Source: Pelagibius litoralis
GTDB taxonomy: Bacteria > Pseudomonadota > Alphaproteobacteria > Kiloniellales > DSM-21159
DNA: 42,686 nucleotides
NCBI GenBank assembly: GCA_029287455.1
Contig: JARFRB010000063.1
Span: forward strand, 1 to 42,686
Reading direction: 5' to 3'
A program made the translations under genes and the position numbers. The notes beneath the pieces are model-generated. The model was not told the origin of the DNA. It searched no databases and was given only the letters and a program-made list of their open reading frames with translations. Of this stretch, positions 3,742 to 27,141 are shown piece by piece; the first letter of the stretch is position 1; every line of letters begins with the position of its first letter.

Positions 3742-3772
3742 AAGGGCCGCTGGCGTTTAGCTGGCGGCCCTT
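3742..3772. terminator. Bidirectional terminator hairpin
   Basis: A 13-bp stem (arms 3742-3754 and 3760-3772, two G-T pairs) with a 5-nt loop is followed on the plus strand by TTTCGTTATT-type sequence. It ends the amt/small-protein transcript. On the minus strand the TAA stop of the FAD oxidoreductase gene (3757-3759) lies in the loop, so the same hairpin can end the long minus-strand TMAO transcript. Confidence 0.8.
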
Positions 3773-5121
3773 TCGTTATTCGCTCCGTCGAGCGTCGCGC
3801 GGTCGCGGTTCGCCTGGGCGTTCTGCCGCCGGTCCACGAACTGCCGGTACCAGAAATCCGCTGCCGTCAGGAAGTATCCGCGCCCGTCCGGGTGGAAGGG
3901 CCGGGCAACCAGCGGTGTTTGGGAGTAGGCCGTTTCCCCGCGCGGGTCGCCGATAGCCTGATAACCAACCTTCATCCCAAGGTAAGGGGCCATTGCGACG
4001 CCTGAGCCGGAGTATCCCATCGCGAAGTGGATGCCTTCGCGCGCGCCCACCTGGGGCATGTGGGTAAAGCTGTAGCCGGTGTTGCCTGTCCAGGCATGGG
4101 TGAGCCGGACTTGGGCCAGGCTCGGCCAAATCTCCGCCATGGTGGCGCGCAAGCGCCAGGCCGCCTTCTCCAAAGGGATTGGCATCATTGCCGCGCGCCC
4201 GCCGAAGAGGAAGCGGCTGCCGTCCGGGCTGATCCGGACATAGGAATGGCGCGCCCGGGTCTCGACCATCATGCGGCCGCCGGGGGCCAGCGCCCGGATC
4301 GTCTCGCCCGGTAAGGGCTCCGTCGCGATAATGTAGCTGGGCAAGGGAAAGACGCGCCGCCGGAACCAGCCGAAGCGGCCGCGTGTATAGCCGTTTGTCG
4401 CCAGGATCACCTTGCCGGCCTCGAAGTCCCCCCTGGCCGTTTCGGCGGTGAAGGTGCTGGCCTTGGGCGCTATGCTCTCAACCGGGCAGTCGGCGACCAA
4501 CGAAACGCCGCTGTCGAGCGCTCGCTTCAATAGTCCTTGGTGGAACTTCCAGGGCTGCACGGCCCCGTGTGCGGGAAAGCGGATCGCGCCGAAGTACTTG
4601 TCGGTGGCGATTTCCTTGGTCAGATCGCCGCGACTGACAATTTCCATTTTCGAGCGGGAGAGGGGCGAGAGTTGTGCAACCTGGCATTTCTGATCCTCGA
4701 AATGGCTTTGCGTCCAGGCAAGCTGAATTCGGCCGGTTTGCTGGAAATCGCAATCGATACCTTCCCGCTCGATCAGGCCACGCGTGAAATCGTAGGCGGC
4801 CGGGGCCTCTTCGACCAAGCGGCGGGCCACATTCTCCCCGAATCGGGCGACCATGGTCTCGAAGGGCAGGCGGGGGTGCGGGCCGAACATGCCGCCATTG
4901 CGGGTCGAGGCCCCTTGCCCCGGCTGGCCCGCATCGACGAGGAGGACCTTCGCGCCCTCTCGCGCGCATGCGAGCGCCGCGCTCAACCCTGTGAAACCGG
5001 CACCGACGATCAGCACATCGACCGGTGATCCCGGGACTTCGCCGGTGTGGGGCGGGGAAAAGGGGTCGCCCCACCAGTAGGGTTGGCCCAACGGCGCTGC
5101 TTCGGGTGCGAAGAGACTCAC
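3757..5121 (-). CDS. FAD-dependent amine oxidoreductase (DAO family), coupled to tdm
   Basis: A 454-residue FAD enzyme of the D-amino-acid-oxidase (DAO) superfamily, resembling PuuB/OrdL-type amine oxidases. The dinucleotide-binding motif VDVLIVGAGFTGLSAALA is at about residues 33-50, the flavin motif GASTRNGGMFG follows, and the C-terminal substrate/FAD region FAMGYSGSGVAMAP is intact. The start is GTG at 5121, which overlaps the tdm TGA as GTGA; the open frame runs further upstream into tdm, but that part has no family character. Translational coupling to tdm strongly ties it to TMAO breakdown. The exact substrate is not shown by sequence; dimethylamine (the Tdm product) or another secondary N-methylamine is my inference, because no DmmDABC dimethylamine monooxygenase genes occur in the window. 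A sarcosine or dimethylglycine oxidase role is the main alternative. Confidence 0.85.
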   Translation of the reverse strand: MSLFAPEAAPLGQPYWWGDPFSPPHTGEVPGSPVDVLIVGAGFTGLSAALACAREGAKVLLVDAGQPGQGASTRNGGMFGPHPRLPFETMVARFGENVARRLVEEAPAAYDFTRGLIEREGIDCDFQQTGRIQLAWTQSHFEDQKCQVAQLSPLSRSKMEIVSRGDLTKEIATDKYFGAIRFPAHGAVQPWKFHQGLLKRALDSGVSLVADCPVESIAPKASTFTAETARGDFEAGKVILATNGYTRGRFGWFRRRVFPLPSYIIATEPLPGETIRALAPGGRMMVETRARHSYVRISPDGSRFLFGGRAAMMPIPLEKAAWRLRATMAEIWPSLAQVRLTHAWTGNTGYSFTHMPQVGAREGIHFAMGYSGSGVAMAPYLGMKVGYQAIGDPRGETAYSQTPLVARPFHPDGRGYFLTAADFWYRQFVDRRQNAQANRDRATLDGANNERAAS

Positions 5122-7490
5122 GTGTAGTTGCCCTTGACCCGCTCCTTGGTGGGGTCGAAGTGTGGGAAGGGCACGACGCTTGCCTTGAGTCGTTTCTGCT
5201 GTCCGTCCAGCTGTCCGACCTCGATAGCTGTGCCGGGGACCGCGTGTGTCACGTCCACCCGGGCCAACGCGATGACCTTGCCTAGAACGGGCGATTTCAT
5301 GGCCGAGGTGATCTCGCCCACCTGCGCTTTGCCGATGCGAAGGCAATCGCCTCCCGAGGGGACCACCCCTCCCTCGAGATCGAGGCCCACAAGTTTCTTC
5401 TGAGGGTGGGCTTTACGCTCCTCCAAGGCTGCGCGGCCGATGAAATCATCCTCCTTGGATTTCAGGGGCACCGTGAAGCCGATTCCCGCCTCGAAGGGAT
5501 CTGTCTGGTCGGAAAACTCCGAGCCCGCGAAGATTAGGCCTGCTTCGATGCGCAGCATATCGAGGGCCGCCAAACCGAGCGGAATCATGCCGAGCGGCTC
5601 GCCCGCCCGCCAGATCGCCGCGAAGACCTCTTCGGCATCCTTGGGGTGGCAGAAGACTTCATAGCCCAGTTCGCCGGAATACCCGGTTCGGCTGACCACG
5701 CAGGCGGGTCCATGAAAATCGCCGATCCGCGCGACGGCGAAGCGGAACCATTGCAGCTCCTCCACCGTGGGCTGAGCCGGCGCGGTCCAGAGTACCTGGC
5801 TCAGGATTTCCCGCGAGCGGGGCCCTTGCACCGCCACGTTGCAAAGCTGGTCTGTGGAGTTGCGCACCCAGGCATTCATGCCGCGCTCTTCCGCCTGCTT
5901 GCGCAGCCAGAGGCCGCTGTCGTCAGTGCCGCCAATCCAGCGGAAATTCGTGTCGCCGAGGCGGAATACCGTGCCGTCGTCGATCATCCCGCCGTGTTCG
6001 TAGCACATGGCGGTGTAGACCACCTGCCCGACCGAGAGCTTCTTCATGTTGCGGGTGACCGCAAGCTGCAGCAGCGCCTCGGCGTCCGGCCCGGTCACTT
6101 CGTATTTGCGCAAGGGCGAGAGGTCCATGATCGCCGCCTTCTCGCGGCAGGCCCAGTACTCGGCGATCGCCCCGTGATCGGTCATTTGCTTGGGCAGCCA
6201 ATAGCCGTTGTATTCCACGAAATCACGCGTGTGCTGCGCGAAACTGGAGTGGAACCCGGTGGTCTTCGTTTCCTCCACATCTTCCTCCGGATTTTTCCGC
6301 CAACCGATGGAGCGCTTGAAGGCTTCCTTCTCGTCGTAGACGCGCACCTGAATATCCGTCGGGTTCCAGGCGTTGGCGGAGTCAATGTCGCAAGGGCAGG
6401 CCGTTGAGACGCAGACGAGGTCCGTCAAGGCCTTCAGTAAAACGTAGTCGCCCGGACGCGACCAAGGATCGTCCATGCCGATGGCGTTCGTTGCGTCCAG
6501 CAGGGTGTTGAAGAAGAAGTTGATTGCCGGCCATCCCGCGCGCGGCTTCACGCCGTAGGGTAAAAGCTCGGCCGTGATGTTGTCCGAGCAATTTATATGC
6601 CCGGGATAGCCTTGGTCTTCGTAATAGCGGGCAGTGCAGGCCAAGCCGAAGGTATCGTGCCGGCCACAGGTGTCCTGGACGATCTCAACCAGGGGCTCAT
6701 GGTCCACGGTCCAATACTTGGCGTAGAGTCCGGGTTCCGGGTAGAGGGAGCCCATGAGCGAGCGGGTGGTGGTGGGATCGATCTCGCGCTCCAGGCCCCG
6801 GTCCAGGGCGGCACGCGAAAATGCCTGGAAGTCCGAGCATTCGCGCCCCTGCACGTCGAGGATTTGGATGTAGCCGCCAGCCTTCACCTCATAGGCCTTG
6901 GCATATCCAGGCTGGATGTTGACGTCGGCGAGCGGGTCGGCCAGCGGTGGAGGCGGGGCGAGAGGATCGCGGGCATTCGCCGGATTGGCGCGGCGAATGT
7001 AGAGCACGATCTCCGTGGGCGTGTTCTGGGCGTCAGGCGCCATGGGCGTGCCCGCCGCGCAGACGATCAACACGCCTTCGGTCTCGGCCTGCAAGGTGTG
7101 GCTATCGCCGGGGCGGGACCCTTCGCCGAAGAGCCGGGCCGCGCGGGCCTTACCCAGGTCGAATCCGGCCGCCTTTAGGGCCCTGAGGACCCGCTGACCG
7201 GATTCCGAACCGTCCGAGAGGGTGGCGCGCAGGCCAGTGGGCTCGCCCGCGTCCTCGGCCCCGATGAGCGCGGGGTCGCTTGTGCCATCTCCGGCGAAGA
7301 CCACGATCTCCACCGGCTGCAGGCCTTCCTTGTCGACGATGGTGATCTCGTCGCCGGTGGCAATCGGCACCGCGCGCGATCCCCCACCCGGCACCGGGTA
7401 TCTCTCGACCCCCGGCGGCAAGACCGGCAGGCCGGGCAGGATTACGCCGGCCCGCTCGTAGGCGTGTTCCAAGACCATTGATCCGGCCAT
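5118..7490 (-). CDS. tdm: Trimethylamine N-oxide demethylase Tdm
   Basis: Tdm splits TMAO into dimethylamine and formaldehyde in the cytoplasm, with the formaldehyde captured on tetrahydrofolate by the C-terminal domain. The 790-residue protein has the diagnostic layout: an N-terminal DUF1989 region (core about 188-375) and a C-terminal GcvT-like folate-binding region (about 415-785, with RTGYSGELGYEVF). Cysteines C218, C275, C285, C301, C360, C365 and C367 cluster in the DUF1989 part; C275, C365 and C367 (TCGRHD and ACPCD) are the best candidates for the three-cysteine zinc site known for this enzyme. Residues 38-65 look like a second, cysteine-free copy of the 197-224 segment. The start at 7490 has GAGGGAGGG upstream. 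It follows tmoW by 22 bp and overlaps the FAD oxidoreductase start. Confidence 0.92.
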   Translation of the reverse strand: MAGSMVLEHAYERAGVILPGLPVLPPGVERYPVPGGGSRAVPIATGDEITIVDKEGLQPVEIVVFAGDGTSDPALIGAEDAGEPTGLRATLSDGSESGQRVLRALKAAGFDLGKARAARLFGEGSRPGDSHTLQAETEGVLIVCAAGTPMAPDAQNTPTEIVLYIRRANPANARDPLAPPPPLADPLADVNIQPGYAKAYEVKAGGYIQILDVQGRECSDFQAFSRAALDRGLEREIDPTTTRSLMGSLYPEPGLYAKYWTVDHEPLVEIVQDTCGRHDTFGLACTARYYEDQGYPGHINCSDNITAELLPYGVKPRAGWPAINFFFNTLLDATNAIGMDDPWSRPGDYVLLKALTDLVCVSTACPCDIDSANAWNPTDIQVRVYDEKEAFKRSIGWRKNPEEDVEETKTTGFHSSFAQHTRDFVEYNGYWLPKQMTDHGAIAEYWACREKAAIMDLSPLRKYEVTGPDAEALLQLAVTRNMKKLSVGQVVYTAMCYEHGGMIDDGTVFRLGDTNFRWIGGTDDSGLWLRKQAEERGMNAWVRNSTDQLCNVAVQGPRSREILSQVLWTAPAQPTVEELQWFRFAVARIGDFHGPACVVSRTGYSGELGYEVFCHPKDAEEVFAAIWRAGEPLGMIPLGLAALDMLRIEAGLIFAGSEFSDQTDPFEAGIGFTVPLKSKEDDFIGRAALEERKAHPQKKLVGLDLEGGVVPSGGDCLRIGKAQVGEITSAMKSPVLGKVIALARVDVTHAVPGTAIEVGQLDGQQKRLKASVVPFPHFDPTKERVKGNYT

Positions 7491-7512: not shown

Positions 7513-9477
7513 TTACTCCAGGCCGAGCGCTTTCTTGCGGTCGGCTGACCAACGAATAATCAAATGGTCCACCAAGAGACCCATGAAAGCCACGCAAAGG
7601 CCCAAAACCAGGCCCTTGCCGACATCCGTGGCGGATAGTGCGCGCTGCATCTCCTGGCCAAGATCGCGCGTGCCGATAAAGGCGGCAATGATCACCATGA
7701 AGAGCGAGAACATCACGGTCTGATTGACGCCCACCATAATGGTCGGCAGGGCCAGTGGAAGCTTCACGGTCCAAAGCTTCTGGCGCTTGGTGGCACCGGA
7801 CATGTCGGCGGCCTCGATCAGGGCCGGCGGCACACCACGCAGCCCCTCGATCGTGTAGCGGGTCATCGGCACCATTCCGAAGACGATCACGGCACCTATG
7901 GCCGCGACGTCGTTCACCCCGAAGAGCATGATGACCGGGATGAGGTAGATGAAGCTGGGGAAGGTCTGCGCCGAATCGCAGATCAAGAGCACGATCCGCG
8001 CCCGCTCCTCCCGGCCGGCGGCCCAGATTCCAAGCGGCAAGCCGATCAAGGCCGCCACAAGCACCGCGAATGTCACCATGTAGGCGGTGATCATTCCCCT
8101 GTCCCACCAGCCCGACATGGCGATAAGACCGGCGAAGGCAAGACAGATCAGTGCCGAACGCGCGCCGCCGATCTTCCAGCCGATGCCGGCGGCCAGGGCC
8201 AGTACGGCTGTATAGGGCAGCCAAAGATAAGCGTCCTGCAAGGGGATCAGCACCCAGACAATCAGGAAGGAGCGCAGGGCCTGGGAGATGGGGTCGAGCA
8301 TCAAGATAACCCAATCGACCACCGCGTCGAATTCCTTCGAGAGCGTGAAGGCTTGGCTGCGCTTGATGACGTGGGCCGCCGGCCAGACCGCCGCCAGGGC
8401 GAAAGCGCCCGCGGTAAGCCCGCACCAGGCAAGGAACAGGCGATTGCGCTTCCACCAGGGCGTTCCACGTTCGAAGTGAACCGGCTGCATCTCCGCCCAG
8501 GCCTTGGAGCAACGGTCGAGCATCACGGCCAAAAGCACGATGGTGATGCCGATCTCGATGGAGCGGCCGATCTTCAGCGCCTGCAGCAGCTGCAGCAGCT
8601 TTTGGCCCAGGCCCGGCATGCCGATGAAGCTCGCCAGCACCACCATGGCCAGGCATTGCATGATCACCTGGTTGACGCCGATCAGGATCTCCGTGCGCGC
8701 TGTCGGGATGCGCACGTGACGCAGGAGCTGCCATTGGGTCGAACCGCACATCATGCCGCTCTCGACCACCTCCGGCGGCACCTTCTTCAAGCCGAGAACG
8801 GTCATCCGGATCATCGGCGGCGTGGCAAAGATGATGGTGACGATGGCGCCAGCCTTTGGGCCCAGCCCGATAAACACTACAACGGGTATCATGTAGGCGA
8901 AGTGCGGCAGGGACTGCGCGATGTTGAGGATCGGATTGAGGATTGCCTCGACCCAGGCCCGGCGCCAGGCCGCGATCCCTAGCAGAAGCCCAAGCGCGAC
9001 GGCGATCGGCACCGCGATCACGATGACCGAGAGGGTCTCCATGGCCCATTTCCATTGGCCCATGAAGGCGATCCAGACGAAGGTTCCGCCGGAGAGCAGC
9101 CCGAGCTTCCAGCCCTTGAGGCCATAGCCAATCATGAAGGCAGTAACCGCGATCACAGTCCATGGCAGGGGGCCGATTCGCGGCCAGCGGTTCTTGCCGT
9201 AGAGCAGATTGGCGGTGATATCCAACAGCCATTCGACCCCGCCGGCGATGGCGCGGGTCACGTAGATCAGCCCCAGGTCATCCTTGATGAAGTTAAAGGT
9301 CCAGTTGATCCAATCGGCGAAGGGCCACACCAGCCACTCCGGAGGGCGAATCAGCCCGTCGGGGAGCGCGAACTTGAAAGCGGCGAGCAGGATGGCGAGC
9401 AGGAACAGCGCTTGACCCACACGTGCCGGGCTCAGGGCGGGCACGGGGGCCGGAACGTCGCGTGCGAGTTCGCTCAT
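7513..9477 (-). CDS. tmoW: TMAO ABC transporter permease (double-length)
   Basis: An inner-membrane permease of 654 residues made of two ProW/OpuAB-type BPD_transp_1 modules in one chain, roughly residues 130-330 and 430-640. Both halves carry the cytoplasmic EAA-loop type sequence (VVESGMMCGSTQWQLLRHV and LIEAADMSGATKRQKLW). The fused arrangement is the one known for TmoW and related betaine permeases. It starts with ATG inside the tmoV stop (ATGA at 9474-9477), so the two are translationally coupled, and tdm follows after 22 bp. Substrate assignment to TMAO rests on the neighbours tmoX, tdm and tmm; glycine betaine or choline are alternatives from sequence family alone. Confidence 0.88.
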   Translation of the reverse strand: MSELARDVPAPVPALSPARVGQALFLLAILLAAFKFALPDGLIRPPEWLVWPFADWINWTFNFIKDDLGLIYVTRAIAGGVEWLLDITANLLYGKNRWPRIGPLPWTVIAVTAFMIGYGLKGWKLGLLSGGTFVWIAFMGQWKWAMETLSVIVIAVPIAVALGLLLGIAAWRRAWVEAILNPILNIAQSLPHFAYMIPVVVFIGLGPKAGAIVTIIFATPPMIRMTVLGLKKVPPEVVESGMMCGSTQWQLLRHVRIPTARTEILIGVNQVIMQCLAMVVLASFIGMPGLGQKLLQLLQALKIGRSIEIGITIVLLAVMLDRCSKAWAEMQPVHFERGTPWWKRNRLFLAWCGLTAGAFALAAVWPAAHVIKRSQAFTLSKEFDAVVDWVILMLDPISQALRSFLIVWVLIPLQDAYLWLPYTAVLALAAGIGWKIGGARSALICLAFAGLIAMSGWWDRGMITAYMVTFAVLVAALIGLPLGIWAAGREERARIVLLICDSAQTFPSFIYLIPVIMLFGVNDVAAIGAVIVFGMVPMTRYTIEGLRGVPPALIEAADMSGATKRQKLWTVKLPLALPTIMVGVNQTVMFSLFMVIIAAFIGTRDLGQEMQRALSATDVGKGLVLGLCVAFMGLLVDHLIIRWSADRKKALGLE

Positions 9478-10505
9478 CTTTCGCTTCCGAAGAGGACCTC
9501 CAAGGCCGCGCGGCGCTTCATCGCGCCGATAACCTGTCCAGCCTCGTCGCTCACGGAAATCAGTTCGCGCTCGTCGTTGACCAGGCGCCGCGCGAGATCC
9601 AGGATGGTGGCGGTGGCGGAAACCGGCTCACCCGGCGGCGTGTCGCCCGCGACATCCTCGGCCAGGTTCTCGGCGCGGATGACACGGGACTTCTCGATAT
9701 CCTCCGTGAATTTCGCGACATATTCGGATTTGGGGTCGAGGACAATGCGCGCGGGTGTGTCGATCTGTTCCACCGCGCCGTCCTTCATGATGGCGATGCG
9801 GTCGGCCAGGCGCAGTGCCTCGTCGAAATCATGGGTGATAAAGACAATCGTCTTGCCGAGCATATCCTGCAGGCGCAGGAATTCGCCCTGCATCTCCCGC
9901 CGGATGAGCGGGTCCAGGGCGGAAAAGGGTTCGTCCAGGAACCAAATGTCGGGCTCGATGGCGAGGCTTCTGGCAATCCCCACCCGTTGCTGCTGGCCGC
10001 CGGAAAGTTCACGCGGGAAATAGGTCTCGCGCCCTTCCAGCCCCACCAGCTTGATGACCTCCATCGCCCGCTCGCGGCGATCGTGGCGGTTTTGGCCACG
10101 CATCTCCAGGGGATAAGCGACATTCTCCAGCACCGTGCGATGGGGCAAGAGGGCGAAGTTCTGAAACACCATGCCCATCTTGTTGCGCCGAAGGTCGATC
10201 AGTTCCGTTTCGCTTAGTGCGCCGAGATCAAGCCCCTCGACCGTGATGGAGCCGCTGGTGATTTCCACCAGGCGGGACAGACAGCGCACCAAGGTCGACT
10301 TGCCCGAGCCGGACAAGCCCATAATCACCAGCATCTCGCCGCTGGAGATGTCCAGCGAGACGTCGCGGCAGGCGGCGATATAGCCGGCCTGATGGATCTC
10401 TTCGTAGCTTGGGTTCCCGCTCAGGCGGGAGATATAGCGTTCCGGATGCGGTCCGTAGAGCTTCCAGACGTCGCGGCAGGAAATAACGGGGGCGCTAGCT
10501 GTCAT
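9474..10505 (-). CDS. tmoV: TMAO ABC transporter ATPase
   Basis: The ATP-binding subunit of the TMAO importer, a ProV/OpuAA-family protein of 343 residues. Walker A is GLSGSGKST at about 63-71, the signature is LSGGQQQRVGIARSLA, and Walker B is IWFLDEPFSALDP. A short C-terminal regulatory tail with CBS-like sequence (DEAGQVIGAMKRRAALEV) follows, as in the osmoregulated betaine ATPases. I place the start at 10505 (MTASAPVIS), 8 nt behind AAGGA; the open frame extends to 10541, but that would run into the intercistronic hairpin and adds a non-family leader. It overlaps tmoW by 4 nt. Confidence 0.9.
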   Translation of the reverse strand: MTASAPVISCRDVWKLYGPHPERYISRLSGNPSYEEIHQAGYIAACRDVSLDISSGEMLVIMGLSGSGKSTLVRCLSRLVEITSGSITVEGLDLGALSETELIDLRRNKMGMVFQNFALLPHRTVLENVAYPLEMRGQNRHDRRERAMEVIKLVGLEGRETYFPRELSGGQQQRVGIARSLAIEPDIWFLDEPFSALDPLIRREMQGEFLRLQDMLGKTIVFITHDFDEALRLADRIAIMKDGAVEQIDTPARIVLDPKSEYVAKFTEDIEKSRVIRAENLAEDVAGDTPPGEPVSATATILDLARRLVNDERELISVSDEAGQVIGAMKRRAALEVLFGSER

Positions 10506-10527
10506 GCAGCTATCCTTGCACGAGGAA

Positions 10528-10553: not shown

Positions 10554-10567
10554 CTGTGGGCAAAGGC

Positions 10568-12984
<2,417 letters not shown>

Positions 12985-14885: not shown

Positions 14886-16241
14886 TTAAAGATGATGATA
14901 GTCTTCGACGCCGACGGTGTAGTCGGTGCCGGCCAGCGGCACGCCCGCCATGGCGGAGGCTTCCATGGTGAGCGCGGCGAGATCTTCCGGCTCCAGGGAA
15001 TGCAGATTTGTCTTGCCGCAAGCGCGGGCGAAGAGCTGTGCCTCGATGGTGAGGGTGTGCAGGAAGTTGTAGACCCGCTCGGCCGCCTCGTCCGGGTCGA
15101 GGCGGGCGCGCAGCGCCGGATCTTGCGTCGCCACGCCGACCGGGCAGCGGCCCGTGTGGCAGTGGTAGCAGTAGCCGGGCTCGACCCCCATCTCCTCTTC
15201 GTAGTCGGCTTCCGGGATGTCCTTGTTGCAGTTCAAGGCCATCAAGGAGGAGTGGCCGATGGCGATGGCGTCGGCGCCGAGCGCCATGGCCTTTGCCACG
15301 TCAGCGCCGTTGCGGATGCCACCGGCGTAGATCAGGGTGATCTCGCCCCGCTTGCCCAGGTCATCGATGGCCTTGCGGGCCTGGCGGATCGCCGCGATGC
15401 CGGGCACGCCGGTGTCTTCGGTGGCCAGATGCGGGCCAGCGCCGGTGCCCCCTTCCATGCCGTCGATGTAAATGGCGTCGGGATCGCACTTCACCGCCAT
15501 GCGCACGTCATCGTAAACCCGCGCGGCGCCAAGCTTGAGCTGGATCGGGATGCGCCAATCGGTGGCTTCCCGGATTTCCAGGATCTTTAGGGCCAGATCG
15601 TCCGGGCCCAGCCAGTCCGGGTGGCGTGCCGGGGACCGCTGGTCGATGCCGGCAGGCAGGGAGCGCATCTCCGCGACCTGGTCGGTCACCTTCTGGCCCA
15701 TCAAATGCCCACCCAGACCGACCTTGCAGCCCTGGCCGATGAAGAACTCGCAGCCGTCCGCCAGCACCAGGTGGTGCGGATTGAAGCCGTAGCGTGACTG
15801 GATGCACTGATAGAACCACTTGGTGGAGTAGCGCCGCTCATCCGGGATCATGCCGCCTTCGCCCGAGCAGGTGGCCGTGCCGGCCATGGTGGCACCCCGC
15901 GCCAGCGCCGTCTTGGCCTCGTAGGACAGTGCGCCAAAGCTCATGCCCGTAATATAAACCGGTATGTCGAGGTCGAGCGGCCGCTTGGCGCGGGGGCCGA
16001 TTACCGTGCGCGTCTCGCACTTTTCCCGATAACCCTCGATGACGAAGCGGGTGAGGGTGCCGGGCAGAAAGGTCAAGTCATCCCAATGCGGAATCTTCTT
16101 GAACAAGGAGAACCCGCGCATTCGGTAGCGGCCGAGTTCAGACTTGATATGGATGTCGTCGATAACGCGCGGCGGAAAGACGAAGGAGCTACCGAGGCGG
16201 TAGGTGTCGCGATCCAGCGGCCGCTTTCTAAGTTGATCCAT
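14886..16241 (-). CDS. mgsC: N-methylglutamate synthase subunit MgsC (FMN/Fe-S)
   Basis: The catalytic synthase subunit of N-methylglutamate synthase, 451 residues, corresponding to the central and FMN domain of glutamate synthase GltB. The FMN barrel is marked by PVYITGMSFGALSYEAK near the N-terminus, IQLKLGAARVYDDV, DAIYIDGMEGGTGAGP and TLIYAGGIRNGADVAKAMALG. A cysteine cluster CYHCHTGRCPVGVATQDP is the 3Fe-4S type ligand region of this family. Together with MgsA and MgsB it transfers methylamine from gamma-glutamylmethylamide (or onto glutamate) to form N-methylglutamate. The start ATG at 16241 follows mgsB by 19 bp. No frameshift is seen. Confidence 0.93.
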   Translation of the reverse strand: MDQLRKRPLDRDTYRLGSSFVFPPRVIDDIHIKSELGRYRMRGFSLFKKIPHWDDLTFLPGTLTRFVIEGYREKCETRTVIGPRAKRPLDLDIPVYITGMSFGALSYEAKTALARGATMAGTATCSGEGGMIPDERRYSTKWFYQCIQSRYGFNPHHLVLADGCEFFIGQGCKVGLGGHLMGQKVTDQVAEMRSLPAGIDQRSPARHPDWLGPDDLALKILEIREATDWRIPIQLKLGAARVYDDVRMAVKCDPDAIYIDGMEGGTGAGPHLATEDTGVPGIAAIRQARKAIDDLGKRGEITLIYAGGIRNGADVAKAMALGADAIAIGHSSLMALNCNKDIPEADYEEEMGVEPGYCYHCHTGRCPVGVATQDPALRARLDPDEAAERVYNFLHTLTIEAQLFARACGKTNLHSLEPEDLAALTMEASAMAGVPLAGTDYTVGVEDYHHL

Positions 16242-16260
16242 GCGATGTGTCCTCCGCGCC

Positions 16261-17130
16261 CTAGAGAATGAGCTTCTTCTCGGTGGGCTCCAGGTTGTCG
16301 TAGTTCCAGAGCTGCTTGCCGGCGACGATCTTGGTGAAGTGATCGACTCCTTGACTTGGTAGCAGATCGTATTGGCTGAGCTTGCGGGTCAGCCATTTAC
16401 GATCGAGCTCGGTCAGTTCCACCTCCACAGCGTCGACGCCCAGGGAGCGGATCTCGCCGCCGATGTAGATGGTGCCGTCGTACATGGAGTCGCCCAGGTT
16501 CTTGCCGGCGTCGCCGCAGACGATCATTCGACCGCGCTGCATCATGAAGCCGGACAATGCACCGGTGTCACCGCCCACGATAATGGTGCCGCCTTTCATA
16601 TCGATCCCGGTACGCGAGCCCACGGATCCCTTGCAGACCAGATCGCCGCCACGGATAGCCGCGCCAAAGGTGGAGCCGGCGTTCTTTTCGATCACAACCG
16701 TGCCCGACATCATGTTCTCGCCGCAGGACCAGCCGACACGGCCATTGATGCGCACGTTCGGCCCATCGATCAGCCCGACCGCGAAGTAGCCGAGCGAGCC
16801 CTCGAACACCAGGTTTAGCCGGTTCAGAATGCCAACGCCCAAGGCGTGTTTGCCGCGCGGGTTCTTGACGACGATCGAGCCATAGCCCTCGGCCATCAGC
16901 GCGCGCAGTTTCTCGTTAACCTCCGTCGTGCTTAGCTCGTCGGTGTCGACCTCGATGCGTTTGTTGTAGTCCACGTCCGGCGCCCAGGGGTAGCCGAAGC
17001 GCTCCTCGGCCTCGGGATCGAACTCGATGAACAGCGAGCGGCCGGTCAGCTGCTCTGTCGTCATGCCGAGCGCCTTGGCCCGCTCCTCCTGGGACATGCC
17101 TTGGAGTTGCTCGTCGGTTACGCCTGCCAT
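16261..17130 (-). CDS. mgsB: N-methylglutamate synthase subunit MgsB (GXGXG)
   Basis: A 289-residue protein equal to the C-terminal beta-helix (GXGXG) domain of glutamate synthase. Repeated glycine-rich rungs run through residues about 90-230 (for example INGRVGWSCGENMMSGTVVI, MKGGTIIVGGDTG, YDGTIYIGGEI). An extra N-terminal segment of about 60 residues (DEQLQGMSQEERAKALGM) precedes the domain. The C-terminal tail (FTKIVAGKQLWNYDNLEP) may dock on MgsC. The start overlaps the mgsA stop by 13 nt, so the subunits are coupled in translation. It has a structural role in the MgsABC complex in the cytoplasm. Confidence 0.92.
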   Translation of the reverse strand: MAGVTDEQLQGMSQEERAKALGMTTEQLTGRSLFIEFDPEAEERFGYPWAPDVDYNKRIEVDTDELSTTEVNEKLRALMAEGYGSIVVKNPRGKHALGVGILNRLNLVFEGSLGYFAVGLIDGPNVRINGRVGWSCGENMMSGTVVIEKNAGSTFGAAIRGGDLVCKGSVGSRTGIDMKGGTIIVGGDTGALSGFMMQRGRMIVCGDAGKNLGDSMYDGTIYIGGEIRSLGVDAVEVELTELDRKWLTRKLSQYDLLPSQGVDHFTKIVAGKQLWNYDNLEPTEKKLIL

Positions 17131-18053
17131 ACGCGGACCTCCTCGTCATAGGGATCGTAAGTGTCGATTTCCTGGGGCAGGATCGCGCGGATCGCGACCT
17201 CCTCGGAGGCCATGGCGATCATGTCGCCGCCCTCGTAGAGCACCAGCGGCTTCGCGGCCATGGTGTCCTTGGCCATGCCCAAGGCGTCCTTGGTCGCCAC
17301 AAGGTAGGTGAAGACCCCGTCGATCTCCTCGATCGATTGGCGCAGGCTATCTTCCAGGCTCATGGAGTTCGCCAGGTTGTGCGCCGTATAGACCGCCAGC
17401 AGCTCGGAATCGCAGTTGGACATGAAGCGGTGACCCTTGCGCTCCATCTCCCGGCGCATGATCCAGTAGTTCGTGATCTGCCCATTGTGGACCACCGCGA
17501 CGTCGTTATAGGGGAAAGCCCAGTAGGGGTGGGCCGAGCGGATGTCCACGTCGGACTCGGTTGCCATGCGAGTGTGGCCGATGGCGTGGGTGCCGACGAA
17601 GCCGCCAAGGTCGTAGGCCTCGGAAACCACCGTGGCGTCGCCTAAATCCTTGATCAGCTCCAGGCCGTTACCCAAGGAAAGGATCTCCACGCCCTCGATC
17701 TCCTCGATATGCTTGGCCATGGCTTCGGTATCGCCGTCATGACTCAGCACGAAGCGCAGGGCATAGGGGGTGACCGTGTCGCGCTCCTTCACCTTGGCGC
17801 CATGGCTGTCGAGCCGCTTCTCGAGCTCCGCGATGCGCTCGGCGATGCGGTCCATGATGCCGTGACCTTTTTCGATGTCCTCTTTCTCCGCGACTTTCAC
17901 GCGCATCACGTAGTCGCCCGGGTTCGGCGGCCCGTAGACCGCGAAGCCCGTTGAGTCGGGACCTCGATGCTTCAGCGCTTGCAGCATCGAGGTCATTTCC
18001 GCGCCCACGGCGGAGGCTTTACCGCGATGGATCAATCCCGCGATTCCGCACAT
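17118..18053 (-). CDS. mgsA: N-methylglutamate synthase subunit MgsA (class II amidotransferase)
   Basis: The glutaminase-like subunit of N-methylglutamate synthase, 311 residues. It begins MCGIAGLIHRG, so Cys2 becomes the N-terminal nucleophile of a class II (Ntn) amidotransferase after Met removal. Further family marks are LKHRGPDSTGFAVYG, AIGHTRMATESDVDIRSAHPY, VVHNGQITNYW and FMSNCDSELLA. In this pathway the domain releases methylamine from gamma-glutamylmethylamide for use by MgsC. AAGGA lies 9 nt before the ATG, and gmaS ends 30 bp upstream. The order mgsA-mgsB-mgsC after gmaS is the usual N-methylglutamate arrangement. Confidence 0.93.
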   Translation of the reverse strand: MCGIAGLIHRGKASAVGAEMTSMLQALKHRGPDSTGFAVYGPPNPGDYVMRVKVAEKEDIEKGHGIMDRIAERIAELEKRLDSHGAKVKERDTVTPYALRFVLSHDGDTEAMAKHIEEIEGVEILSLGNGLELIKDLGDATVVSEAYDLGGFVGTHAIGHTRMATESDVDIRSAHPYWAFPYNDVAVVHNGQITNYWIMRREMERKGHRFMSNCDSELLAVYTAHNLANSMSLEDSLRQSIEEIDGVFTYLVATKDALGMAKDTMAAKPLVLYEGGDMIAMASEEVAIRAILPQEIDTYDPYDEEVRVWQA

Positions 18054-18083: not shown

Positions 18084-19556
18084 TTAGGGGAGATAGTCGA
18101 GGTAGGTCTCGACGTCCCAATTGGTCGTGGTGTGCATGAAGCGCTCCCACTCGTCGGTCTTGTACTCGTTGAACAGCCGGTACATTTCCCCCGGCATCGC
18201 CGCCTTGATGGTCTCGTCCTTCGATAGCGCGTCGAGCGCTGCGCCCAAGGACATCGGCAGCTTCTTGACCTGTTTGCCTTCCTCCATGGCGACGTAGATG
18301 TTGCGCTCTTCCGGCTTGCCGCAGTCGATCTTGTTGGTCAGCCCGTCGTCAATGGCCATCAGCAAGGCCGAGCCCATGAGATAGGGGTTGACCATGGAAT
18401 CCACGGAGCGGAATTCGAAGCGGCCTGGCGCGGAGATGCGCAAGCCCGTCGTGCGGTTCTGGAAGCCCCAATCCTTGAACACCGGTGCCCAGAAGCCGGT
18501 ATCCCACAAGCGCCGGTAGGAGTTCACGGTGGAACAGCCGATCGCGGTCAAGGCGTCAAGGTGCTTGACGATGCCGCCGATGGAATGTTGCCCAACAATA
18601 CCCGGCATCTGCGGGTCGTCGCCTTCCGGCATAAAGGTATTCTCGCCGCCGCTGAGATAGGCGAAGACCGCGTCCATTGCCGGACGCTCTTTCTGACCCA
18701 GAGCCTTCTCCTTGTCCTCGCCGCCGCGCCACAGGGAAATGTTGTGATGGCAGCCGGAGGCCGAAACGCCCATGAAGGGCTTGGTCATGAAGCAGGCGAT
18801 CAGGTTGAACTCGCGGGCGACCTGGGCACAGATTTGGCGATAGGTGGTCAAGCGGTCCGCGTTGCGCAGGCAGTCGTCGAAGGTAAAGTTTAGCTCTAGC
18901 TGCCCCGGCGCGTCCTCGTGGTCGCCTTGGATCATGTCCAGGCCCATCGCACGGCCGTATTCGATGACCCGCATGTAGACCGGGCGCAGGCTCTCGAACT
19001 GATCGATATGATAGCAGTAGGGATTGGAGAAGCCGCCGGCGGGCTGCCCGTCCTCGCCCTTCTTCAGCCACATCATCTCCGGCTCGGTGCCGGACCTCAG
19101 GTGCAAGCCGTGCTTGGCCTGGAAGTCTGTGTGGAGGCGCCGAAGATTGCCCCGGCAGTCGGAGGTCAGGAAGGCACCGGGATCCTGGCGTTCCTCCCGG
19201 TTACGGAAGAGGGTGCACCAGACCCGCGCCACCCGCTTGTCCCAGGGTAGCTGGCAGAAGGTTTCCGGCTCGGGAATGCCGACCAGTTCCGCGGCCTCCG
19301 GGCCATAGCCCATGTACTCGCCGTGGCGGTTGAGGAAGAGGTTGACCGTCGCGCCATAGACCAGCTGAAACCCGCGCTCCGCGATGCTTTCCCAGTGATC
19401 CGCGGGAATCCCCTTGCCGCAAATCCGCCCAGTGATGGAGACGAACTGCAGGTAGAGGTACTCAACGCCAAGCGCGTCGATCTTCTGGCGCACCTCCTTG
19501 ACAAGCTTGTCGCGGTCTTCGGCTTCGACGACGGTTTCGATGTCCATCTTCCCCAC
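18084..19556 (-). CDS. gmaS: Gamma-glutamylmethylamide synthetase GmaS
   Basis: GmaS joins methylamine to glutamate with ATP, the entry step of the N-methylglutamate pathway. The 490-residue protein is a glutamine-synthetase-fold enzyme of the GlnT/type III-like branch. Visible marks are LRSGTEPEMMWLKKG (metal site), GQLELNF (acidic substrate region), SGCHHNISLW, CSTVNSYRRL and ISAPGRFEFRSVDSMVNPY. The start is GTG at 19556, six nucleotides behind GGGAGG; an internal ATG at 19547 would be too far from that site. It is the first gene of the thirteen-gene minus-strand set and lies divergent to a GntR regulator gene, which probably controls it. Glutamine synthetase activity is the alternative, made unlikely by the mgs neighbours. 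Confidence 0.94.
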   Translation of the reverse strand: MGKMDIETVVEAEDRDKLVKEVRQKIDALGVEYLYLQFVSITGRICGKGIPADHWESIAERGFQLVYGATVNLFLNRHGEYMGYGPEAAELVGIPEPETFCQLPWDKRVARVWCTLFRNREERQDPGAFLTSDCRGNLRRLHTDFQAKHGLHLRSGTEPEMMWLKKGEDGQPAGGFSNPYCYHIDQFESLRPVYMRVIEYGRAMGLDMIQGDHEDAPGQLELNFTFDDCLRNADRLTTYRQICAQVAREFNLIACFMTKPFMGVSASGCHHNISLWRGGEDKEKALGQKERPAMDAVFAYLSGGENTFMPEGDDPQMPGIVGQHSIGGIVKHLDALTAIGCSTVNSYRRLWDTGFWAPVFKDWGFQNRTTGLRISAPGRFEFRSVDSMVNPYLMGSALLMAIDDGLTNKIDCGKPEERNIYVAMEEGKQVKKLPMSLGAALDALSKDETIKAAMPGEMYRLFNEYKTDEWERFMHTTTNWDVETYLDYLP

Positions 19557-22614: not shown

Positions 22615-23865
22615 ATGCGGTATTCGGCACTGAAAATCCTCGCCGAGGGGCTTACCGGGAACAAGGGTTGGAGGCCGATCTGGCGCCAGCCCGAGCCCAA
22701 GGCCGAGTACGACGTGGTGATCGTGGGCGGCGGCGGCCACGGTCTGTCCACAGCGTATTATCTCGCCAAGACCTTCGGCATCACCAAGGTTGCTGTTCTG
22801 GAGAAGGGCTGGCTGGGCTCGGGTAACATCGGGCGGAACACCACCATCATCCGCTCCAACTATCTGCTGCCGGGCAACGAGCCCTTCTACGAGCTCTCGT
22901 TGAAGCTTTGGGAGGGCCTGGAGCAGGATTTCAACTACAACGCCATGATCTCCCAGCGGGGGATCGTGAACCTCTTCCACAGCGACCCACAGCGCGATGC
23001 CTACGTGCGGCGCGGAAACGCCATGCGTATGGCCGGGGCGGATGCGGAATTGCTCGACCGCGAGGCCTTGGGCAAGCTCTGCCCCTATCTCGACTTCGAC
23101 AACGCACGATTTCCCATCAAGGGCGGGTTGCTGCAGGCGCGCGGCGGCACGGTGCGCCATGACGCGGTGGCCTGGGGCTACGCGCGCGGTGCCGACAGCC
23201 GGGGCGTGGATCTGATCCAGAATTGCGAAGTGACGGGTTTCCTGATGAACAAGGGGGTTTGCGAGGGCGTGGAAACCTCGCGCGGCACGATCCGGGCCAA
23301 GAAGGTGGCGGTTTGCGTCGCCGGCTCGTCGAGCCGAGTCATGAGCCAGGCCGGCCTGCGCCTGCCTATTGAAAGCCACGTGCTGCAGGCCTTCGTTTCG
23401 GAAGGGCTGAAGCCGGTCCTGCCGGGGGTCATCACCTTCGGCGCCGGGCACTTCTACGTCTCGCAATCGGACAAAGGCGGCCTGGTCTTCGGCGGCGATA
23501 TCGACGGCTACAACTCCTATGCCCAGCGCGGAAACCTGCCGGTCGTTGAGGATGTCTGCGAGGGCGGCATGGCGATCATGCCGATGATTGGGCGCGCGCG
23601 GCTGCTGCGCATGTGGGGCGGGGTTATGGACATGTCGATGGATGGCTCGCCCTTCATCGACAAGACCCCGATCTCCGGCCTCTATTTCAACGGCGGCTGG
23701 TGCTACGGCGGATTCAAGGCCACCCCCGCCTCGGGATATTGCTACGCCCACCTGCTGGCCAAGGATGAACCCCATCCCACTGCGCGCGAATACCGGCTGG
23801 ACCGCTTCCGGCGTGGCCACATGATCGACGAGAAGGGCTCGGGCGCCCAACCGAACCTACACTGA
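22615..23865 (+). CDS. mgdA: N-methylglutamate dehydrogenase subunit A (SoxB-like)
   Basis: The FAD-bearing beta-type subunit of the four-part N-methylglutamate dehydrogenase, 416 residues, homologous to SoxB of sarcosine oxidase. The dinucleotide motif DVVIVGGGGHGLSTAYYLA is at about 38-56, and GSGNIGRNTTIIRSNYL follows. The stretch GGTVRHDAVAWGYARG (His near residue 182) corresponds to the covalent-flavin histidine region of the SoxB family. The C-terminus has the FAD contact GGWCYGGFKATPASG. The start is the ATG at 22615 (MRYSALKILAEGL) behind AGAGGG; a TTG at 22597 is an alternative. mgdB begins 13 bp after the stop. Without mgs genes nearby this would be called sarcosine oxidase. Confidence 0.92.
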   Translation: MRYSALKILAEGLTGNKGWRPIWRQPEPKAEYDVVIVGGGGHGLSTAYYLAKTFGITKVAVLEKGWLGSGNIGRNTTIIRSNYLLPGNEPFYELSLKLWEGLEQDFNYNAMISQRGIVNLFHSDPQRDAYVRRGNAMRMAGADAELLDREALGKLCPYLDFDNARFPIKGGLLQARGGTVRHDAVAWGYARGADSRGVDLIQNCEVTGFLMNKGVCEGVETSRGTIRAKKVAVCVAGSSSRVMSQAGLRLPIESHVLQAFVSEGLKPVLPGVITFGAGHFYVSQSDKGGLVFGGDIDGYNSYAQRGNLPVVEDVCEGGMAIMPMIGRARLLRMWGGVMDMSMDGSPFIDKTPISGLYFNGGWCYGGFKATPASGYCYAHLLAKDEPHPTAREYRLDRFRRGHMIDEKGSGAQPNLH

Positions 23866-23878
23866 GGACAGCCGAGAG

Positions 23879-24166
23879 ATGATCATCGACCATCCACTCC
23901 TGGGCCCGCGAGATGCCGCCGAGTTCGTCTATCTGGGCGACGCTTCGCTGATCGAACGGCCGGACTGGCAGGCAGAGGACGCCGCGGAGCGTTTCCATGA
24001 CTATCTCTATCTTCGCGACAATCCGGCCGGCGAACACCAGGAGCTCTGGTACCACGAGCAAGGCGACCGCTCTTGGCTGGTGGTGACCCGAGACACGCTG
24101 ACTCACGAGATCCTCAAGGTCGAACTCGCCAGCGACGTCGCCCGCGCCCGGGGTAGGCGCAAGTAA
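23879..24166 (+). CDS. mgdB: N-methylglutamate dehydrogenase subunit B (SoxD-like)
   Basis: The small delta-type subunit, 95 residues, equivalent to SoxD. SoxD proteins of sarcosine oxidase bind zinc through an N-terminal CPYCG motif and later His/Cys residues. Here the same place reads HPLLGPRDAAEFVYLGDA and the whole protein has no cysteine, so the zinc site is absent or rebuilt. The rest (DYLYLRDNPAGEHQELWYHE, GDRSWLVVTRDTLTHEI) follows the family. It sits between mgdA and mgdC in the normal order, with 13-bp and 26-bp spacers. It is probably structural. Confidence 0.9.
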   Translation: MIIDHPLLGPRDAAEFVYLGDASLIERPDWQAEDAAERFHDYLYLRDNPAGEHQELWYHEQGDRSWLVVTRDTLTHEILKVELASDVARARGRRK

Positions 24167-24192
24167 GCGATGAGCAGGGGGGAATGCGCGAA

Positions 24193-27141
24193 ATGACTCA
24201 GGCCTACCGCGTCAAGGGCGGGCTGATTGAGCGCGCGCGCCCCGTCTCCTTTTCCTTCGATGGCCGAAGCCTGGAAGGCTACCCCGGCGATACCTTGGCC
24301 TCGGCCCTGCTGGCCAACGGAAGGCGCTTGGTGGCGCGCTCCTTTAAGTACCACCGGCCCCGCGGCATTTTCACCGCTGGCTCGGAGGAGCCGAGCGCCC
24401 TTGTCCAACTGCGCCGCGGGAATGCCCAGGAACCCAATACCCGGGCCACCGTGGTCGAGCTCTTCGACGGCCTTGAGGCGACGAGTCAGCACCACCGGGG
24501 CTCGCTCAGGTTTGACGTTCTGGCGGTCAACGACCTCTTGTCGCCCTTCCTGTCAGCCGGCTTCTACTACAAGACCTTCATGTGGCCGAAGTCCTTCTGG
24601 GAGAAGGTCTACGAGCGGGCGATTCGCGCGGCCGCCGGGCTCGGCAGCCTGTCAGGCTCGCCGGACCCGGACGTCTATGACAAGGGCTTCCTGCACTGCG
24701 ATGTCCTGATCGTTGGCGCGGGGCCCGCCGGTCTGGCCGCAGCCTTGACGGCAGGTCGGGCCGGGGCGCGGGTAATCCTGGCCGACGAGGATTTCCGAAT
24801 GGGCGGCCGGCTTAACGCCGAGACCTACGCGGTCGAGGACATGGCCGGGGCCGACTGGGCCGCGGCGGCAGCCGCCGAACTCGCCTCAATGGATAATGTG
24901 CGCTTGATGCCCAGGACCACGGTTTACGGCGCCTACGATCATGGCGTCTATGGTGCGCTGGAGCGGATGACCGATCACCTCCGGGAGTCCGGCGGCAAGC
25001 CCCGGCAGGTACTTTGGCGGGTCTATAGCAAGCGCGCCATTCTTTGCGCCGGCGCGACCGAGCGCTCCATCGCCTTCGGCAACAACGATCGGCCGGGCAT
25101 TATGCTGGCGGGGGCGGCGCGGGCCTATGTCAACCGCTTTGCCGTGGCGCCTGGCGACAGGATCGCCGTCTTCACCAACAACGATGACGGCTGGCGAACG
25201 GCGGTCGATCTGTCGGCCAAGGGAGTCGAGGTCACGGCTTTGATCGACACCCGCGACCGTCAGCCCTTGGCGGCGATCCGGGGCGCCATGATCCTGATGG
25301 GTGGCGCGGTCACGGACACCAAAGGGCGCCATGGCGTCAAGTCCATCGCCTTGTCGAACGGGCAAAGTATCCGGGCCGATTGCCTGGCCGTTTCCGGCGG
25401 CATGAGCCCGAATGTGCAGATCACCTGCCATCAGCGCGGCCGGCCCGTCTGGCGCGAGGATATCGCTGCTTTCGTGCCAGGGGAGGGGCTGCCCCCGGGC
25501 CTCGCCGTCGCCGGCGCGGCCAAGGGCACTTACGGTTTGGGCGCGGTCCTGCGCGAAGGGCACGACGCCGCGAAGGAGGCGGTGTCGTCGTTGGGCCTAA
25601 AGCCGCCCAAGGGAGCGGCCCCGCGCGCCGACGACGAAGCCAGCGAGATCAGCGCGTTCTGGCGCGTAAAGGAAAGCACGGAGCGCGCCTGGATCGACCT
25701 GCAGAACGACGTCACGGTGAAGGACGTTTACATCTCCCACCGCGAGGGCTTCCGGGCGGTCGAGCATCTCAAGCGCTACACCACGCTCGGTATGGCGACC
25801 GATCAGGGAAAGACGGCGAACGTTTTGGGCCTGGCCATCATGGCCGAGCACACCCAGCGCTCGATCCCGGAGACAGGCACGACGATCTTCCGGCCGCCCT
25901 ACACGCCGGTGCCCATCGGGGCCCTCGCCGGGCGTTCGCGAGGCAAGGAGTTCCGCCCGGTCCGCCTGACGCCGAGCCATGCCTGGGCCGAGGCGCAAGG
26001 GGCCGTTTTCGTCGAGGCGGGAATGTGGCTGCGCGCCCAGTGGTACCCCCGCGAGGGCGAAACCCATTGGCGCGAAAGCGTGGACCGCGAGGTCAAGCAG
26101 ACGCGCGGCTCGGTCGGCATTTGCGACGTAACCACCCTGGGCAAGATCGATATTCAAGGGCGCGATGCTGCCGAGTTTCTCAACAGGGTCTACGCCAATG
26201 GCTTCGCCAAGCTGGCTGTTGGAAAGGTGCGCTATGGCCTGATGCTGCGCGAGGATGGCATTGCCATGGACGACGGAACCACCGCGCGCTTTTCCGAAAC
26301 ACACTTCGTCATGACGACCACCACCGCGAACGCCGTGGGTGTCTTCCGGCATCTGGAGTTCTGCCGCCAATGCCTCTGGCCGGACTTGGATGTGCACCTG
26401 ATCTCCGCGACGGAGCAGTGGGCGCAGTTCGCCGTAGCGGGGCCGAATTCGCGGGCGCTTCTGCGCAAGATCATCGACCCGGAGTTTGACATCTCCAACG
26501 AGGCCTTCCCCTTTATGGCTTGCGCGGAACTAACGCTGTGCGGCGGGGTGCCGGGGCGGCTTTTCCGGATCTCCTTTTCGGGCGAACTCGCTTACGAGCT
26601 CGCGGTGCCCGCGCGTTACGGGGATGCCCTGGTCCGCGCCTTGATGGAAGCCGGCGAGGAGTTCGGGGTCGTCGCTTACGGCACAGAGGCCTTGGGTGTG
26701 ATGCGGGTCGAGAAAGGTCACGCGGCGGGCAACGAACTAACCGGGCAGACCACCGCCCGCGATCTGGGGCTCGGGCGCATGGTGTCCAAGAAGAAGGATT
26801 GCATCGGCGGTGTGCTCTCCGAGCGCGCCGAGCTTAATCGGGAGGATGGGCTGGCTTTGGTCGGCTTTAAGCCGGTCAAGCCCGAGGAGAGCCTGACGGC
26901 GGGCGCGCATTTCCTCACCAAGGGCAAGTCCGCGAGTACGGAGAACGACGAGGGGTGGATGACTTCCGTCGCCTACTCGCCGGAATTGGGGCATTCCATC
27001 GGGCTGGGTTTCATCAAGCGCGGGCAGGAGCGTCTGGGAGAGGTTGTGGTGGCGGCGAGCCCGCTGACCGGTGGGGATGTCGAGGTGGAGATCGTCTCCC
27101 CCCATTTCGTCGATCCGGAGGGGGAGCGGTTGCGTGCCTGA
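24193..27141 (+). CDS. mgdC: N-methylglutamate dehydrogenase subunit C (SoxA-like)
   Basis: The large alpha-type subunit, 982 residues. Order of domains: an N-terminal ferredoxin-like fold without iron-sulfur cysteines (about 5-100, RPVSFSFDGRSLEGYPGDTL), a pyridine-nucleotide binding region (about 171-460, CDVLIVGAGPAGLAAALTAG), and a C-terminal GcvT-like folate domain (about 587-980, RISFSGELAYELAVPARYG). The subunit binds NAD and passes the methyl-derived C1 unit to tetrahydrofolate. The start at 24193 (MTQAYRVKGGLIERARP) is preferred since AGGGGGG is about 10 nt upstream; the ATG at 24184 is too close. It overlaps mgdD by 8 nt. Confidence 0.93.
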   Translation: MTQAYRVKGGLIERARPVSFSFDGRSLEGYPGDTLASALLANGRRLVARSFKYHRPRGIFTAGSEEPSALVQLRRGNAQEPNTRATVVELFDGLEATSQHHRGSLRFDVLAVNDLLSPFLSAGFYYKTFMWPKSFWEKVYERAIRAAAGLGSLSGSPDPDVYDKGFLHCDVLIVGAGPAGLAAALTAGRAGARVILADEDFRMGGRLNAETYAVEDMAGADWAAAAAAELASMDNVRLMPRTTVYGAYDHGVYGALERMTDHLRESGGKPRQVLWRVYSKRAILCAGATERSIAFGNNDRPGIMLAGAARAYVNRFAVAPGDRIAVFTNNDDGWRTAVDLSAKGVEVTALIDTRDRQPLAAIRGAMILMGGAVTDTKGRHGVKSIALSNGQSIRADCLAVSGGMSPNVQITCHQRGRPVWREDIAAFVPGEGLPPGLAVAGAAKGTYGLGAVLREGHDAAKEAVSSLGLKPPKGAAPRADDEASEISAFWRVKESTERAWIDLQNDVTVKDVYISHREGFRAVEHLKRYTTLGMATDQGKTANVLGLAIMAEHTQRSIPETGTTIFRPPYTPVPIGALAGRSRGKEFRPVRLTPSHAWAEAQGAVFVEAGMWLRAQWYPREGETHWRESVDREVKQTRGSVGICDVTTLGKIDIQGRDAAEFLNRVYANGFAKLAVGKVRYGLMLREDGIAMDDGTTARFSETHFVMTTTTANAVGVFRHLEFCRQCLWPDLDVHLISATEQWAQFAVAGPNSRALLRKIIDPEFDISNEAFPFMACAELTLCGGVPGRLFRISFSGELAYELAVPARYGDALVRALMEAGEEFGVVAYGTEALGVMRVEKGHAAGNELTGQTTARDLGLGRMVSKKKDCIGGVLSERAELNREDGLALVGFKPVKPEESLTAGAHFLTKGKSASTENDEGWMTSVAYSPELGHSIGLGFIKRGQERLGEVVVAASPLTGGDVEVEIVSPHFVDPEGERLRA

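Follow-up and report, generated by a model that had tools for sequence, protein, structure and literature searches.

Trimethylamine N-oxide (TMAO) is the fish-odour compound, and bacteria that demethylate it with Tdm are left with dimethylamine, which has still to be turned into methylamine. Among described systems, that conversion is the work of DmmDABC, a multi-subunit monooxygenase according to PMC5520151, and the same step would fall to an FAD-dependent oxidoreductase encoded directly behind tdm in Pelagibius litoralis, whose assembly is without DmmA, if a first-pass annotation of the locus is right. The trimethylamine and dimethylamine dehydrogenases (FMN, 4Fe-4S) resemble such an enzyme in their flavin-dependent demethylation of amines but belong to family PF00724, whereas the oxidoreductase belongs to PF01266. 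E. coli PuuB, the gamma-glutamylputrescine oxidase, has the same domain, a similar length, 27% identity over 386 aa and the same two leading profiles, AmaA and Phn_aa_oxid; the oxidoreductase departs from this PuuB/AmaA/aminophosphonate-oxidoreductase branch in that the NCBIfam scores shown for it lie far under cut-off and that no puu gene was seen beside it by eye.

Marine bacteria of the SAR11 type offer a further comparison. In the portion of PMC5520151 available to us, dmmDABC is stated to be absent from all SAR11 representatives, and strain HTCC1062 is described as expressing a predicted general amine oxidase under nitrogen limitation, its role unproven. The same strain, without dmmDABC, is reported to use TMAO as its only nitrogen source for growth, possibly by recruiting an isoenzyme (PMC8918994). 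Its monomeric sarcosine oxidase, SAR11_1304, has a gcvT-like gene and a transporter of the glycine-betaine type as neighbours according to PMC3160333, where such genes are spoken of as demethylating unknown substrates. Among the papers searched, PMC3160333 is the sole one to name SAR11_1304, and, judged from titles and the opening lines of abstracts, none proposes it for dimethylamine; in the available part of PMC13390433, on the regulation of this pathway in Ruegeria, the words 'oxidoreductase' and 'FAD' do not occur. The wider question is how bacteria without dmmDABC turn dimethylamine into methylamine: a candidate answer from a single lineage is the P. litoralis gene; a concrete one, with a bearing on the amount of dimethylamine that escapes from the sea, is a sarcosine-oxidase-like enzyme of SAR11-like bacteria, described below.

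An oxidoreductase gene overlapping tdm

The window, by which we mean the whole stretch of 42,686 nucleotides analysed here, holds a set of genes for TMAO and methylamine:

3757..5121, minus strand: FAD-dependent oxidoreductase, DAO family (PF01266), PuuB/AmaA-like branch, 454 aa, GTG start (from ORF, domain, alignment and tree)
5118..5121, minus strand: GTGA overlap of tdm stop and oxidoreductase start (read directly)
5131..5135, minus strand: AAGGG, possible ribosome-binding site of the oxidoreductase, inside tdm (read from the sequence, unscored)
5118..7490, minus strand: tdm, trimethylamine N-oxide demethylase, DUF1989 plus GcvT folate domain (NF053776, 1230 bits, cut-off 1100)
7513..9477, minus strand: ABC transporter permease, TmoV-like by gene order (homologues adjoin tdm in other loci)
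9474..10505, minus strand: ABC transporter ATPase, TmoW-like by gene order, with a 4-nt overlap with the permease gene
10568..11518, minus strand: ABC substrate-binding protein, TmoX-like by gene order
11644..12984, minus strand: tmm, trimethylamine monooxygenase (NF058570, 782 bits, cut-off 675)
14886..18053, minus strand: mgsCBA-like genes, N-methylglutamate synthase (domains, gene order)
18084..19547, minus strand: gmaS-like glutamine-synthetase homologue, named by gene order
22615..27703, plus strand: mgdABCD-like (sarcosine-oxidase-type) N-methylglutamate dehydrogenase genes (soxB, soxA and soxD models)

The gmaS-like protein scores 286 bits against the type III glutamine synthetase model (cut-off 469.6) and 201 bits against that for gamma-glutamylputrescine synthetase (cut-off 650). 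Two mgd-like genes pass their models (soxB 696 bits over a cut-off of 529, soxA 1340 over 1164); soxD reaches 86 bits (cut-off 116.5), and the last gene of the group, 27266-27703, has no model match at E 1e-20. Two further proteins accompany these genes. That of 137 aa directly after mgsC (14461-14874, minus strand) has no NCBIfam match at E 1e-10 and, in a longer reading of its frame, no Pfam match either, and homologues 72-80% identical to it adjoin mgsC in at least L121, L122, L134, L273-L277 and L279. The other, of 195 aa (13015-13602, minus strand), likewise matches no Pfam or NCBIfam model, and its homologues, 35-40% identical, lie in the vicinity of tmm or mgs genes in L107, L112, L118, L120, L121 and L138.

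The oxidoreductase gene is the last of six on the minus strand, after tmm, the binding protein, ATPase, permease and tdm. Its frame is intact, with 455 codons including the TAA stop and a GTG start at 5121-5119, while tdm ends in ACG TGA with the TGA at 5120-5118, the two genes sharing GTGA in different frames. The sequence thus bears out the first-pass statement that a DAO-family oxidoreductase starts inside the tdm stop; the overlap is real, but to call it the tightest possible coupling was an overstatement, as two ABC-transporter genes of the same operon also overlap by 4 nt (9474-9477). The open frame extends upstream to a TTG at 5346, and a codon-score caller favoured a start at 5016; a start at 5121 is needed because the PYWW motif of the family, whose W16 is nearly invariant in the alignment, requires it. 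The AAGGG at 5135-5131 stands 9 nt upstream of the GTG. The GC and GC3 of the gene resemble those of its operon neighbours, and a scan for promoters and terminators found no more than in shuffles. Seen by eye, and absent from the list produced by that scan, a repeat GGGCCGC/GCGGCCC flanks the oxidoreductase stop (3744-3750 and 3764-3770).

Family, relatives and conservation

The protein is a fresh member of the known DAO superfamily in an unusual place: it matches PF01266 with 206 bits (cut-off 27.9) over residues 35-385 and profile positions 1-350 of 353, and has the N-terminal GxGxxG dinucleotide motif. The first-pass identities of Tdm and of the oxidoreductase both hold at these scores. Among the 25 best NCBIfam matches shown, none reaches its cut-off. 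The best, the L-pipecolate oxidase AmaA (NF050086), stops at 159 of 600 bits, which places the protein outside AmaA proper; the aminophosphonate oxidoreductase model gives 132 bits (cut-off 633), and the sarcosine oxidase models give 35 bits (TIGR01373, soxB; cut-off 529) and 23 bits (TIGR01377, monomeric; cut-off 480). With 27% identity and no puu neighbour recognised by eye it does not classify as PuuB, nor, with no PF00724 match in the domain search, as a dimethylamine or trimethylamine dehydrogenase. A single-sequence AlphaFold model has a pLDDT of 34.8, too low to be of use.

The best relatives found are 48% identical or less, PuuB/AmaA-like, and located elsewhere than behind tdm. The seven best homologues in the order of P. 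litoralis (43-48%) lie among unrelated genes, none on a contig with tdm (0/7); of the weaker matches listed, two lie on a contig that also carries tdm, G010:C47 (33%) some 97 kb and G050:C63 (30%) some 58 kb away from it. A paralogue in the same genome (39%) and four plasmid homologues (39-44%) adjoin ABC transporters, annotated as polyamine-type in two records, and in two records aldehyde dehydrogenase and aminotransferase genes are also near; around the Ti-plasmid homologue stand ABC transporters (one annotated spermidine/putrescine), an aldehyde dehydrogenase and a class III aminotransferase. When 36 proteins were placed in a tree, the window protein shared its smallest starred clade with the Ti-plasmid protein and one from genome G252 (support 99/92); its own branch is long (1.25), and the program cautions that long branches may have been drawn together. 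Searches of plasmids, with the Ti protein at E 1e-100 and with the G252 protein at E 1e-80, returned the same Ti record only, and a contig scan with the FAD protein as query gave one fragment at 27%.

The relatives in G252 and G061 (42 and 41%) adjoin MgsA-, MgsB- and MgsC-like, glutamine-synthetase-like and aldehyde dehydrogenase genes, a setting reminiscent of the window's own GmaS/MgsABC genes, which suggests glutamate-linked amines as a further class of substrate. This neighbourhood may represent one event: among the 26 genomes with a relative at E 1e-95 (385 genomes of the class), a relative near an MgsC-like gene occurs, besides the window, in G252 and G061 only, and a general linkage of the FAD protein with MgsC was rejected accordingly (contigs compared at E 1e-100 and E 1e-95). 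In L162 and L163, gene names given by eye put an aldehyde dehydrogenase, a DAO protein and MgsABC-like and glutamine-synthetase-like proteins together next to an ABC transporter of branched-chain type, a grouping that resembles a route by way of glutamate for some other amine.

Conservation of the pair was judged on 61 other near full-length tdm loci, from 57 genomes, found in searches of the order and class. The next gene could be called at 58 of them (35 on the tdm strand, 21 of those within 100 bp), and at none was it a homologue of the oxidoreductase or any other DAO gene (0/58), in calls made by a simple codon-score or longest-ORF script that may miss neighbours and left some known genes unrecovered, with many neighbourhood names assigned by eye. 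A panel of 35 proteins, chiefly DAO, matched two next genes, in L093 and L124, both GcvT-type proteins that match the GcvT part of fused DAO proteins. A DAO gene is the second gene from tdm in L134, and in L156 one of 29% identity is found upstream, two genes from tdm and on the opposite strand. The order binding protein-ATPase-permease-tdm recurs without the oxidoreductase, for example in L094, L096, L113, L114 and L150; L119 has it too, its contig ending right after tdm. In L090, L091 and L092, of the family of P. litoralis, tdm is followed by what by eye is a sodium/solute-symporter-like gene, and the ABC transporter does not adjoin.

Near full-length tdm occurs in 27 genomes of the order, 25 of which were also searched for DmmA. 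It is absent from 21 of the 25, P. litoralis included, and the other 20 are all without the FAD-tdm pair. Since the pair was seen in P. litoralis alone, most tdm genomes of the order carry neither DmmA nor the pair; the absence of dmm is therefore ordinary among tdm carriers, and the oxidoreductase is not the usual answer to it. Nor is the adjacency beyond chance by number alone: the 3.6 Mb genome holds 27 near full-length DAO matches, about 0.8% of an assumed 3,500 genes, from which roughly half a case would be expected among 58 tdm loci.

Candidates for the dimethylamine step in P. litoralis and in a SAR11-like order

The DIMETHYLAMINE step is missing from the P. litoralis assembly, as far as its completeness of 96.3% shows. 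DmmA, searched with a query from G006, a genome of the same family, has no match in the assembly, the window included; within the order it matches in 4 of 59 genomes (G006, G046, G049, G060), and PF11927, the family of DmmC, in 11 of 59. DmmA, DmmB, DmmC and DmmD do not stand together here, DmmA being absent and PF11927 solitary. The first-pass remark that the window holds no dmmDABC therefore extends to the genome, where the DmmA and PF11927 searches found no such cluster elsewhere.

The sole PF11927 (HODM) protein (G000:C137:17167-17955, minus strand, 284 aa, 274 bits) is flanked by Sel1/TPR-like and ATPase genes, named by eye, with no dmm neighbours. It was rejected as DmmC on its 34% identity over 201 aa, its solitary position and its relatives at 51-52% identity in G012 and G013, both without a full tdm match. 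A search for a dimethylamine dehydrogenase yielded two long PF00724 proteins on C10 and C27, one of 677 and one of 684 aa, both matching best 1ps9 (2,4-dienoyl-CoA reductase) and 6qkg (NCR), with trimethylamine dehydrogenase lower, and these too were rejected. Where histamine dehydrogenase has the Cys that carries FMN, the C27 protein has an Ala in the alignment.

A different DAO protein adjoins tdm in an order here called SAR11-like on the basis of genome size (mostly 1.1-1.5 Mb among those with the DAO gene, three of 0.8-1.0), low G+C and gene order; the absence of dmm from it is taken over from what the accessible part of PMC5520151 says of SAR11.

L134:6307-7635, minus strand: sarcosine-oxidase-like DAO gene beside tdm (also in L271, L272, L273 at 10049-11392, L274, L276, L277 and L283)

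In G265 (1.2 Mb, G+C 0.33), tdm is followed by a 116-aa gene, the 443-aa DAO gene and then gmaS- and mgsABC-like genes. The DAO gene lies between tdm and gmaS in L273, L274, L276 and L277, and between tdm and mgdA in L271, L272 and L283; G+C is 0.30-0.36 in 12 stretches of the order besides L134 (0.33). Across 105 genomes, the DAO protein was found in 42 (E 1e-40) and tdm in 39 (E 1e-150), and all 39 tdm genomes, which are mutually related, carry the DAO gene, in G511 as a piece cut by the contig end. It lies within 600 bp of tdm in 35 of the 39 (30 downstream on the same strand, 5 divergent) and 3.5-6.2 kb downstream in the remaining four. In three further genomes the DAO gene occurs although tdm gave no match; it is close to a contig end in G465 and G509 and away from one in G354. 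Outside the order the protein turned up in no other tdm neighbourhood examined, L134 being the sole match in L077-L165, and the small low-G+C genomes G089 and G393 (L123, L124) are among those without it, which counts against wide use.

Its nearest solved chain by sequence is 2gag_B, of the sarcosine oxidase beta type (E 7e-14), and it is probably of the same family as SAR11_1304, to judge by position and annotation. It resembles the window oxidoreductase in belonging to the DAO superfamily and in adjoining tdm, in bacteria of a kind for which absence of dmm is reported; it differs in being of the sarcosine-oxidase-beta type and in being kept with tdm across its order, unlike the window gene. 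Judged by sequence comparison it is not an orthologue of the latter, the two giving no significant BLAST match (E 0.42 over 40 aa). A search of the P. litoralis genome for an orthologue of it was equally fruitless, the best match at the loci of the 27 near full-length DAO matches being 27% over 223 aa. The SAR11-like DAO looks like the holder of the place of the missing step, and a stronger case than the window enzyme; its linkage to tdm strengthens the general idea of a DAO enzyme in place of Dmm.

Substrate and alternative readings

We regard it as evenly balanced whether the gene encodes a PuuB/AmaA-type FAD amine oxidoreductase that is specific to its lineage, was added to the TMAO operon and acts on an N-methyl amine of the TMAO/methylamine route. 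This judgement includes the dimethylamine case, and the likelihoods given here, those of the alternatives among them, overlap and are not shares of one whole. On this view a tmoX-tmoW-tmoV-tdm operon that otherwise recurs gained the gene at its 3' end, and translation of the gene probably goes together with that of tdm. By the chemistry of the family, the FAD would take a hydride from the carbon next to the amine nitrogen, and the resulting imine would hydrolyse to an aldehyde and a shorter amine; by position, the substrate would most likely be one of the N-methyl amines of the route, with formaldehyde or its folate adduct as the aldehyde. Formaldehyde from an N-methyl substrate could pass to folate, and Tdm itself has a GcvT folate domain. 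Dimethylamine is, tentatively, the leading single candidate; equally plausible is an N-substituted glutamate or some other amine with an acidic end, given that two relatives adjoin N-methylglutamate-synthase-like and glutamine-synthetase-like genes. Against this explanation counts that the N-methylglutamate step is already covered here by mgdABCD, and the link to tdm is possibly accidental, since no second instance of the pair turned up in the tested set.

The first-pass proposal, that the oxidoreductase completes the chain as a dimethylamine oxidase or dehydrogenase yielding methylamine and formaldehyde in place of DmmDABC, would agree with its position after tdm, with an assembly 96% complete that has neither DmmA nor a clustered DmmC, and with gmaS-mgs-mgd-like genes at hand to use methylamine. 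The non-orthologous DAO between tdm and gmaS in the SAR11-like order offers an analogy, as does the growth on TMAO nitrogen reported for HTCC1062 (PMC8918994). The comparison nevertheless lends the proposal no support: no DAO gene is next to tdm at the 58 other loci, the 20 other tdm genomes without DmmA do not have the pair, the relatives sit in other settings and the SAR11-like DAO shows no significant sequence match, all of which makes it unlikely in our view. That usual absence of DmmA (21/25) instead agrees with dimethylamine not being used further, a possibility that leans to the unlikely side, in which TMAO gives energy and C1 units, dimethylamine is released, methylamine from outside enters through gmaS-mgs-mgd and the oxidoreductase does something else. 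A dimethylamine bottleneck has been proposed for marine bacteria (PMC5520151), but the growth of HTCC1062 without dmm indicates that dmm-independent routes seem to exist.

The step might also be taken by another protein of the same genome, the C137 HODM-type protein or one of the long PF00724 flavoproteins, which belong respectively to the family of the DmmC subunit and to proteins with the layout of trimethylamine dehydrogenase; the low identity and dmm-free surroundings of the one, its relatives in genomes without full tdm, the nearness of the others to 1ps9 and 6qkg and the Ala of C27 make this very improbable. Rather doubtful, too, is that the gene came to lie behind tdm by chance and has nothing to do with methylamines: a singleton pair, a genome in which DAO genes are common and nearest relatives in unrelated surroundings would fit, but the shared strand, the 4-nt overlap, the similar GC make-up and the intact frame do not suggest it. 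Returning to an amine oxidoreductase recruited to the TMAO operon, it is quite unlikely that DAO-family flavoenzymes were recruited at least twice as dimethylamine demethylases in bacteria without dmmDABC, once as the SAR11-like sarcosine-oxidase type, retained between tdm and gmaS or mgd genes, and independently, in the lineage of the window, as the PuuB type whose translation would be coupled to that of tdm.

The window holds one further flavoprotein group, at 28950-31751 on the plus strand, where a DAO protein, a short protein that by eye is 2Fe-2S-like and a flavoprotein stand in a row and resemble the three-part amine/opine dehydrogenases.
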